This document shows positions 18,673 through 21,916 of a DNA stretch of 64,000 bases, piece after piece. The notes beneath the pieces are model-generated. The model had not been told where the DNA came from, did no database searches, and saw only the letters and a list, made by a program, of their open reading frames with translations. Origin of the DNA: Deltaproteobacteria bacterium (GTDB lineage: Bacteria > Myxococcota_A > Polyangia > Polyangiales > Sandaracinaceae); NCBI GenBank assembly GCA_017303575.1, contig JAFLCL010000011.1, positions 1 through 64,000 on the forward strand, given 5' to 3'. Both the position numbers and the translations under genes were made by a program. Positions within the stretch are counted from its first letter, which is position 1. Each line of letters begins with the position of its first letter.

Positions 18673-20091
18673 ATGAAGCGCGCGCTCCTTCTTCTCGCGG
18701 TGGTGGCCCTGACCTCGGCCTGCGAGGTCAGCGGTGGAGGCACGCGGCGACGTGACTCTGGTCCTTCGATCTTCACCGATGCGCCCGGCCTCGAGACGCC
18801 GGATGCGTACTTCGAGCGCGCCGACATCGGCCCCCTGCCCGACGCTCCGCCTCTGCCCGGCGACAGCGACGGTGATGGCATCCCCGACGCGGACGAAGCG
18901 CGCTACGGCACCGATCCGAGCAACGCCGACACGGACGGTGATGGGCTCGGTGACGGTGTGGAGGTGCTCGCAGAGACCGATCCCACCGATCGAGCGGACC
19001 GCATCCCCGACACCGACTTCTACGTGGTGCTCCCCTACATGGAGGAGCCGATCCATCGGCCGCTCGACTTCCGTGCGCGCCTCGGACGCGCCGACATCTT
19101 CTTCCTCGTCGACACCACCGGCTCGATGGGGGCGGCGATCACGAACGTCACTTCCTCGCTGTCGACGACGATCGTGCCGGCCGTCAACGACGCGATCGCG
19201 GATGCAGTGATGGGCGTGGGCGACTACCGCGACTTCCCCGTCGATCCGCACGGAGATCCGGGCGATTGGGCGTTCCAGATCCGTCAGACGATGACGAGCG
19301 ATCTGCCCTCGGTGCAGACGGCGCTCCGCGGGCTTCGTGCGGGCGGCGGCAACGACGGTCCCGAGTCCGCGACGGAAGGCCTCTTCCGCACCGCCTCGGG
19401 CGACACGTGCCCCGACGGCTTCGGCGAGGCGTGCTTCCGCTTCTCGTCGCACCCGATCATCGTCCTCGTCACCGACGCTCAGTTCCACAACGGTCCCGAC
19501 ACCTCGAACGACTACGGGTCCGCGGTGCCGACCGCGCGTACGTGGAGCGAGACGACCGCCGCGCTCAACGCGAACGACGTGAAGGTCGTGGGAGTCGCGG
19601 TCGACTCCGCGCCGTTCCCGCTGCCGTTCCCCATCCCCGTCGCGAGCGAGCCCGACCTGCGCGCGCTCGCGATGGCGACCGACTCGCGCTCGAGCACCGG
19701 CACGTTGACGGTGTTCACCGCCGCGAGCGGCTCGGTGAGCACCTCGGTGGTCGATGGCATCGTCGACCTCGTCGGCGCGGCGGAGCAGGACGTGTCCGCG
19801 CGCAAGCTCGACGACGACACCGACGCGATGGACGCCACGCAGTTCATCCTCGCGATCACGCCGCTCCGCGCGACGCGGGCGACGCGCTTCGACGACACGA
19901 CGTTCTTCGGTGTCGCGGGCGGCACGACGGTCACGTTCGACGTGACGTTCCAGAACAACGTCGCGCCCGCGACCGATCGCGTGCAGCTCTACCGCGCCTT
20001 CATCGAGGTGTTCGAGGTCTCGAGCGGCACGGCGCTCGATCGCCGCAACGTCTACATCGTCATCCCGCGCGAGGACGGCGGCCTCATCTGA
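18673..20091 (+). CDS. VWA-domain lipoprotein with thrombospondin type 3 repeats
   Basis: This 472-residue lipoprotein has lipobox TSAC (Cys 17). Calcium-binding TSP3-like repeats (GDSDGDGIPDADE, ADTDGDGLGDG) lie at about 62-105, and a von Willebrand A domain begins near 140 with MIDAS motif DTTGSMG. The remaining strand-helix pattern is complete, with DVKVVGVAVDS late in the domain. A beta domain of about 100 residues ends the protein. It is likely a surface adhesion or binding protein. Its stop abuts the stop of rtcB on the other strand in a TGATCA. Confidence 0.85.
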   Translation: MKRALLLLAVVALTSACEVSGGGTRRRDSGPSIFTDAPGLETPDAYFERADIGPLPDAPPLPGDSDGDGIPDADEARYGTDPSNADTDGDGLGDGVEVLAETDPTDRADRIPDTDFYVVLPYMEEPIHRPLDFRARLGRADIFFLVDTTGSMGAAITNVTSSLSTTIVPAVNDAIADAVMGVGDYRDFPVDPHGDPGDWAFQIRQTMTSDLPSVQTALRGLRAGGGNDGPESATEGLFRTASGDTCPDGFGEACFRFSSHPIIVLVTDAQFHNGPDTSNDYGSAVPTARTWSETTAALNANDVKVVGVAVDSAPFPLPFPIPVASEPDLRALAMATDSRSSTGTLTVFTAASGSVSTSVVDGIVDLVGAAEQDVSARKLDDDTDAMDATQFILAITPLRATRATRFDDTTFFGVAGGTTVTFDVTFQNNVAPATDRVQLYRAFIEVFEVSSGTALDRRNVYIVIPREDGGLI

Positions 20092-21207
20092 TCACCCGAT
20101 CCCCTTGTGCACGAGGAGCGGGGTGAGGCGCTCCTCGACGCGCATAAGAGGTCGTGCATCGGCCAGCACCGCGTCGAGATCCTTGTAGGCAGAAGGGATC
20201 TCGTCGAGGAGCCCTCGCGCGAGGCGTGCGTCGAAGAGCACGCCGTGCATCGCGCGCGCGAGGTCAGGCACCTCGTGCGTTCGACGCGCCTCCGTGCGAG
20301 TCATCGCGCGACCCGCGCCGTGTGGACACGATCCGAGCGCGCCCGCGGGCGCATCGTCTCGCGCACGCACGATCGCGACGTCGGCGCCCATCGACCCGGG
20401 CACGAGGCCTCGCTCGCCGGCCCCAAGCGCCATCGCGCCCTTGCGGTGCACGTAGACGTCGCGCGGCTCGCCGTCGATCACGTGACGCTCGCGCCGCACC
20501 GAGTCGTGGTGCGTGTCGAGGCGCGTGCTCTCGTCGACCGTGAGCGCGACGCGATCGCCGATCGCCTCGAGCACGCGCGTCATCACGACGCGACGGTTCT
20601 GACGCGCCCACGCGACCGCACGCTCGACGTCCGCGAGGTAGCCTGCACCTTCTTCGGATCGCGCGAGCACGCGCGCGTAGCCTCCGCGTCGCTCGGTGGC
20701 CGACCTGCGATGGAGGGCCTGGAGGCACGGTCCGAGCGAGCGCGAACCCGTGTGCACGAGCAGCCACAGCGATCCGTCGTGCCTCGCGCGCCGGAGCTCG
20801 ACGAAGTGGTTGCCGCGACCGATCGTGCCGAGCTCGTGGCCGTGCTCCACGTCGGCGAGCGGAGTCGTGTGCCGCTGGATGGGGACCGCACGCGCGATTC
20901 GCTCGAGCACGTCGCGCGCCCGCCGCGGGTCCTCGAGCGAGTCCGTCGAGCGGGCGATGCGGAGCCCCGCGATGCCGCAGCCGAGATCCGAGCCGAGCCA
21001 GGCGGGCACGAGCCAGTCGCGCGTCGCGATGGCGGTGCCCACGCACGCGGGCTCCTCGTCGAGCGAGCCCGCGAGGTGAACGTCCGGAAAGACCCCGAGG
21101 TGCGCGACATCGTCGATCGCCAGCACACGATCGACGAAGCGCGCGATGTCGGGATCGAGCGCCGAGACGAACGTGCTGAGGCGCTGTCGATCGCGCGCGC
21201 GCGTCAT
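20092..21207 (-). CDS. rtcB: RtcB-family RNA ligase
   Basis: This 371-residue protein ligates RNA 2',3'-cyclic-phosphate or 3'-phosphate ends to 5'-OH ends through a GMP-histidine intermediate. All metal and catalytic positions expected from the family are visible: Asp74 and Cys77 (GSDLGCG), His134 (GRGNHFVE), His152 (VHTGSRSLG), His254 (VYVHRKGA) and the guanylylated His296 (GSCPHGAGR). It is shorter than E. coli RtcB (408), as in the RtcB2-type branch. No archease or RNA cyclase is beside it. Its ATG overlaps the stop of an RbfA-like gene, so the two are coupled. Confidence 0.93.
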   Translation of the reverse strand: MTRARDRQRLSTFVSALDPDIARFVDRVLAIDDVAHLGVFPDVHLAGSLDEEPACVGTAIATRDWLVPAWLGSDLGCGIAGLRIARSTDSLEDPRRARDVLERIARAVPIQRHTTPLADVEHGHELGTIGRGNHFVELRRARHDGSLWLLVHTGSRSLGPCLQALHRRSATERRGGYARVLARSEEGAGYLADVERAVAWARQNRRVVMTRVLEAIGDRVALTVDESTRLDTHHDSVRRERHVIDGEPRDVYVHRKGAMALGAGERGLVPGSMGADVAIVRARDDAPAGALGSCPHGAGRAMTRTEARRTHEVPDLARAMHGVLFDARLARGLLDEIPSAYKDLDAVLADARPLMRVEERLTPLLVHKGIG

Positions 21208-21677
21208 CGTTCACCTCCCACGAGCGCCGCGAGCGCGAGCTCGTCCTCCGTGAGCAGAGACCACGTGAGCCGCAGCGCGCGCTTGCGATCGAGCTCGACG
21301 GCCAGCTCGCTCGCGAGGCGTCGCTCGACGCGCGTGAGCGCAGCGTGCGCGGCCGCGTGGACCTCCGCAGGGCACGCGAACGTCGCATGCACGGACTTGC
21401 CGTCGTTGCGCGCCCCCTCGAGGCGTACGTCCTCGAGCGCGGGATCCTCGAGGCTCGCGAGCGTGAGGGCGAGGGCTTCGCGCGCGGCCGATGCGATCAT
21501 CGCGGCGCGCGGGTCGGGGAACAGATCGAACGAATCGAAGGAGCCAGGAACATGCGCGCGGGTGCCTCTTCGGCCCCGCTCGCGAGAGCGTCGATGGGTC
21601 AAGACGAGCCTCGTGTGCTCGCGAACGCGAGCCGCCAGGGTGAGGTGCGAACGCGCCGCGTCGTCACCCGGCTTCAC
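21204..21677 (-). CDS. RbfA-like ribosome-binding protein coupled to rtcB
   Basis: The open frame gives up to 157 residues; a TTG at 21602 (132 residues, THRRSRERG) is a likelier start, and the RbfA-like part begins still later. The pattern AAREALALTLASLEDPALEDV followed by an alternating strand, a long helix (ALTRVERRLASELAVEL) and a final strand (RALRLTWS) matches the KH-type fold of RbfA, including the DPxL element after the first helix. RbfA helps finish the 30S subunit. It is not a PrfH release factor, since no GGQ motif is present. Identification is by pattern only. Confidence 0.55.
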   Translation of the reverse strand: MKPGDDAARSHLTLAARVREHTRLVLTHRRSRERGRRGTRAHVPGSFDSFDLFPDPRAAMIASAAREALALTLASLEDPALEDVRLEGARNDGKSVHATFACPAEVHAAAHAALTRVERRLASELAVELDRKRALRLTWSLLTEDELALAALVGGER

Positions 21678-21916
21678 GAAGGAGCGTGGCGTCGCGCGTC
21701 ATGCGGACGCACCGAGGCGCTCAGGCTTCGTCGTGCCGAGAGAGGATCGCGGGATGTGCGTGCGCAGTCATGACGTCCTCGAGAGGTGCGGACGAGACGC
21801 GCGCGGCGCGCCGTGCTGACGACACAAGGCGCAGAAACGCGAAACGAGGAAGAGATCGCTCTCTTCCTCGTTCGTCGGACCGGTGCGCGATCAGCCGATC
21901 CCGCGCTCGCCCCAGC
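21678..21916. other. Gap between the RbfA-like gene and the PilZ-PEGA gene
   Basis: No convincing gene is seen. Any promoter of the RbfA-rtcB unit should lie here, read on the minus strand. The plus-strand open frames crossing the region are Arg-rich shadows. The gap grows to more than 300 bases if the RbfA-like gene starts at 21602. Confidence 0.5.

Follow-up and report, generated by a model that had tools for sequence, protein, structure and literature searches.

RtcB RNA ligases are widespread in bacteria, and their natural substrates are mostly not established. In the stretch of DNA analyzed here (64,000 nucleotides, referred to as the window), an rtcB gene overlaps a small gene directly upstream, which an earlier note on this sequence had called RbfA-like by pattern. 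The locus raises the question of what the small protein is, how widely the two genes occur together and which RNA the pair might act on.

Architecture of the rbfA2-rtcB locus

Both genes are encoded on the reverse strand. The rtcB gene (20,092–21,207) codes for a 371-residue protein that is assigned to the RtcB family by its Pfam match, its intact catalytic residues and its position in the tree. In the profile search it matches PF01139 with an E-value of 3.6e-59 (201.5 bits, cut-off 27). The catalytic positions D74, C77, N133/H134, E137, H152, H234, H296 and K368 are present and, in an alignment, invariant across 28 RbfA-linked relatives, in agreement with the earlier description of a complete active site. 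By family and active site, the protein is predicted to be a GTP/Mn-dependent ligase of 3'-phosphate and 5'-OH ends. The same genome encodes a second RtcB, which has no RbfA partner. It contains no match to Archease (PF01951) in an assembly that is 94% complete, and Archease was rejected as the missing partner on this ground.

The small gene, which we name rbfA2 (21,204–21,602, reverse strand), encodes 132 residues plus a stop codon. We read its start as the TTG at 21,602, since the conservation with a 73%-identical relative (L007) begins at this codon and a GAGG motif is located 6 nt upstream (21,612–21,609). The GTG at 21,677, previously given as the start, is only the mechanical beginning of the open reading frame and is probably not used. 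The overlap of the two genes described earlier is found as an ATGA at 21,204–21,207, formed by the TGA stop of rbfA2 (21,206–21,204) and the ATG start of rtcB (21,207–21,205). A GGGAGG sequence within the 3' end of rbfA2 (21,214–21,219) is the likely Shine-Dalgarno sequence of rtcB, and GGAGG-like motifs occupy the same position within the RbfA gene in most relatives. In 25 of 26 loci, RtcB can be read from an in-frame start that gives an overlap of 4–14 nt with the stop codon upstream, with the starts inferred. As judged from these sequences, rbfA2 and rtcB form a conserved operon that is probably translationally coupled.

The two genes stand alone as a unit. An 11-bp hairpin with a GCGA loop, followed by TTTCGCGTTT, separates them from the PilZ/PEGA gene upstream (21,845–21,870, reverse strand). 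The surrounding 71-nt stretch folds at −37.9 kcal/mol (z −3.8). The hairpin carries a T-containing tail, was missed by a consensus terminator scan and is a probable terminator of the PilZ/PEGA gene. On the other side, downstream of rtcB, a convergent VWA-domain gene ends at 20,091. A scan for consensus promoters at the locus found none.

Identity of the partner and conservation of the pair

As a single sequence, the small protein matches no Pfam family and gives nothing meaningful in NCBIfam, and its top match in the PDB, Thermus RbfA (2dyj), reaches an E-value of only 0.012. We therefore rely on the family and the fold for its identity. In an alignment of 34 rows, comprising the window protein and 33 relatives that adjoin other RtcBs, the family profile finds RbfA structures as its seven best PDB matches, with 2dyj first (E-value 3.8e-9). 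Individually, 30 of the 34 members match PF02033, the Pfam RBFA model (best E-value 3.2e-10), and 25–26 match the two main NCBIfam rbfA models. The AlphaFold model of the window protein has a core with pLDDT mostly above 90 and the element order alpha-beta-beta-alpha-alpha-beta, which is that of RbfA, a type-II KH fold with a kinked helix pair. In a Foldseek search with this model, 2dyj is again the best match, with a TM-score of 0.80. The RbfA-specific sequence features (L.R...A...RKR.P.L.F) are kept. The family profile, the member-wise Pfam matches and the fold settle the partner's membership of the RbfA family. The call made by pattern is borne out, and the profile comparison that the earlier note had suggested finds RbfA similarity above background at the level of the family, though the window sequence alone has no Pfam match.

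Differences from the housekeeping protein can be observed. While RbfA2 shares the fold and the family profile of housekeeping RbfA, it is an additional paralog that is coupled to rtcB and carries a basic N-terminal extension. Several linked members score above the PF02033 gathering cut-off of 34.7 bits, but most, including that of the window, lie below it. In the window protein the extension is an arginine-rich tail (MTHRRSRERGRRGTRAH..., 21,500–21,602, reverse strand), modeled with pLDDT 50–62 over residues 1–30 and probably disordered. Basic N-terminal extensions are present in other members too, many with a C..DDG.DPR motif. A separate RbfA above the Pfam cut-off is encoded in 24 of 26 genomes that hold the pair. 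The window's genome likewise has an additional canonical RbfA (82 bits), and separate canonical copies are also found in three further genomes (G116, G090 and G163). The linked RbfA is therefore an extra paralog and not the housekeeping copy.

To see how far the pairing extends, we used the window's RtcB to scan approximately 85,000 species genomes, which gave 80 loci with a relative of it. An RbfA-like open reading frame lies directly upstream of RtcB in 33 of them, which represent Myxococcota, Planctomycetota, Acidobacteriota and unclassified bacteria. At the RtcBs that come next in similarity, most of them actinobacterial, the neighbor is PrfH instead (39 loci), and no RtcB that we examined has both partners. 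Selection by similarity was avoided in two phylum samples searched with an RtcB profile. In 246 genomes sampled around a planctomycete, the RtcB scores split into a group of at least 389 bits and a group of at most 330 bits; the RbfA-like frame is directly upstream in 11 of 11 RtcBs above the gap and in none of the 19 loci fetched below it. Among 189 Myxococcota, all five RtcBs above the gap (at least 386 bits) are linked, as opposed to 2 of 25 fetched loci below. The pair occurs patchily, in 11 of the 246 genomes of the first sample and in about 7 of the 189 Myxococcota. A scan of genome neighborhoods had been proposed earlier as a check, and it shows that the pairing is conserved in at least three phyla rather than absent from relatives. 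Most linked RbfA2 proteins are 15–29% identical to that of the window.

The conserved context is restricted to the two genes. In an all-against-all comparison within 5 kb of 27 loci, no third gene recurred; only RtcB, the RbfA-like gene and their shadow frames did. No nuclease toxin, stress regulator or defence gene recurs beside the pair, RbfA-RtcB fusions were not found, and 80 viral RtcB loci contain neither an RbfA-like nor a PrfH partner.

RbfA2-type genes also occur on their own. Without an RtcB within about 1.5 kb, they are present in 14 of the 246 genomes of the planctomycete sample, often beside SufT/SUF genes, and in six Myxococcota genomes. The family thus extends beyond its pairing with RtcB. 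An unlinked RtcB is encoded elsewhere in 13 of the 14 orphan-containing genomes compared with about 68% of the remaining genomes of the sample; this association is only suggestive. The alignment behind the tree of the RbfA family is too short to place linked relative to orphan members. In five loci (L153, L158, L159, L163 and L165, with the RbfA-like gene at about 1,480–1,930), orphan RbfA2-type genes of about 100 residues with no RtcB nearby adjoin SufT/SUF iron-sulfur genes and a SufS-like cysteine desulfurase.

The RtcB clade and its relation to RtcB2-PrfH

The earlier note had placed the ligase with the RtcB2 type, which is found next to prfH. This assignment is not upheld. Against TIGR03073, the model of PrfH-associated RtcBs, the window's protein scores 109 bits with a cut-off of 271.8. 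PrfH-linked RtcBs stand apart in the tree, where nine of the ten group in a clade of their own (support 100/100). There is no adjacent prfH. Together, these results rule out RtcB2 membership. The window's RtcB is located within a clade of 32 RbfA-linked rows, with support of 94/57 for the whole and 100/96 for 29 of them; the SH-aLRT value of the branch uniting the linked RtcBs is only 57.

Two further pairs fall outside this main clade. At L212 (genome G116, 937–2,607), an RbfA that groups with canonical RbfAs is encoded upstream of a canonical-type RtcB, and at L213 (genome G163) an RbfA-like gene is found a few hundred bases upstream of another. Both RtcBs are inside the canonical clade of the tree, which suggests that the RbfA-RtcB pairing arose more than once. 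Besides the 11 of 11 linkage, such a repeated origin is the strongest hint that the two proteins are linked in function.

The window's genome encodes no PrfH above the cut-off. A search of 34 genomes, almost all with the RbfA pair, found one in a single genome. A separate PrfH-RtcB pair is present at L172, L173 and L174, in genomes that hold the RbfA pair elsewhere (G068, G150 and G214), and there the PrfH-like proteins are divergent (139–150 bits, below the TIGR03072 cut-off). Because the two coexist in a few genomes (L171–L174), PrfH and the RbfA pair are not strict alternatives. A further RtcB-PrfH pair is encoded on a Skermanella plasmid (L236, 1–4,245), approximately 2.2 kb from a gene for a polynucleotide kinase-phosphatase that carries an RNA repair annotation.

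The closest known counterpart is the RtcB2-PrfH operon (PMC9223846; PMC6514570), in which two genes likewise encode an RtcB ligase and a factor that associates with the ribosome, and which is also patchy in bacteria. There, however, the partner is a release factor encoded downstream, whereas here it is an RbfA paralog encoded upstream, and the RtcB belongs to a different clade. The RtcA-RtcB-RtcR and RtcB-Archease operons also provide RtcB with a dedicated functional partner. Unlike in those systems, only two genes recur here, and Archease is absent from the window's genome. Our literature search found no paper that treats RtcB and RbfA together; an earlier mention is possible, most likely in Burroughs and Aravind 2016, which was outside the search. 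That RtcB can have a partner acting on the ribosome is known, and what is new here is the partner, the gene order and the RtcB clade.

Possible function in 30S repair

RbfA binds deep in the neck of the 30S subunit, displacing the tips of h44 and h45, which blocks 50S joining (PMC8201178). With PrfH, RtcB2 reseals a 16S rRNA cut between positions 1493 and 1494, on the 30S subunit after subunit splitting (PMC9223846), and for E. coli RtcB, religation of the 3' ends of MazF-cut 16S rRNA has been reported (PMC12186496). The decoding-centre and MazF cuts are both in the region that RbfA moves. We consider repair of the 30S subunit the likeliest function of the pair and, with 16S rRNA as the presumed substrate, the most economical model.

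In this model an endoribonuclease would cut 16S rRNA in the 3' minor domain, in the decoding centre or at the 3' end, as colicin-E3-type or MazF-type nucleases do, and the ribosomal subunits would part. RbfA2 would then bind the 30S neck in the manner of RbfA and presumably shift helices 44 and 45, keeping the damaged subunit open, out of translation and with the nick presented. Through a putative physical handover from RbfA2, RtcB would seal the nick in 16S rRNA, joining a 2',3'-cyclic phosphate (or 3'-phosphate) to a 5'-OH end, after which RbfA2 would depart. We lean slightly towards the view that the two genes together make up a self-contained module for 30S/16S rRNA repair, with a dedicated RbfA paralog. 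Points that weigh against it are the orphan RbfA2 genes, the lack of a recurrent nuclease toxin or stress regulator near the pair, and the SH-aLRT value of 57 for the branch that unites the linked RtcBs. The wider proposal seems to us evenly balanced: that RtcB-based ribosome repair has evolved a second time, independently, as a system in which an RbfA paralog opens the decoding centre or 3' minor domain, a clade-specific RtcB reseals 16S rRNA, an RbfA-type factor has been recruited to finished ribosomes and the pairing has arisen more than once.

It could be argued that RbfA2 has no role on the ribosome and that, in a part like that of Archease, its KH fold activates RtcB or supplies it with substrate, the ligase then repairing tRNA or other RNA. 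The strict coupling, presumably with near-stoichiometric synthesis, fits a subunit of a complex, Archease could not be detected in the window's genome, and a KH fold is able to bind RNA generally. We nevertheless find this unlikely: the protein scores as RbfA and keeps the RbfA-specific features, the Archease fold is unrelated, and the other RtcB encoded in this genome does without an RbfA partner. The chance that an additional assembly factor and a generic RtcB are simply co-transcribed, with functions that have nothing to do with each other, appears very small. The orphan genes imply that RbfA2 functions without an adjacent RtcB, but the linkage persists across at least three phyla despite the low identity of most RbfA2 proteins to that of the window, it is complete for the RtcBs of the clade, and pairs exist in other RtcB clades too.

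Bacterial rRNA processing normally leaves 5'-phosphate ends. This speaks against a role in rRNA maturation rather than repair, in which RbfA2 and RtcB would join, circularize or trim pre-16S ends produced, during normal 30S assembly, by a nuclease that leaves 5'-OH and cyclic phosphate. Such a role would agree with RbfA being an assembly factor that acts on the 17S precursor and its 5' end (PMC8201178), as well as with the chromosomal contexts of the pair, which have no recurrent defence gene, and with the lack of RbfA-like partners in the viral loci. The presence of a separate housekeeping RbfA and the patchy occurrence, which is at odds with an essential step, make maturation a distinctly improbable explanation.

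If the 30S repair model is correct, an entire RtcB clade would have its own 30S-binding partner and, through it, a named likely substrate. The pair would be a counterpart to PrfH-RtcB2 that acts by re-opening an assembly intermediate rather than by peptide release. The linkage also makes sense of RbfA paralogs for which an annotation pipeline would give only the plain label ribosome-binding factor A, and 30S repair becomes testable with two small soluble proteins.
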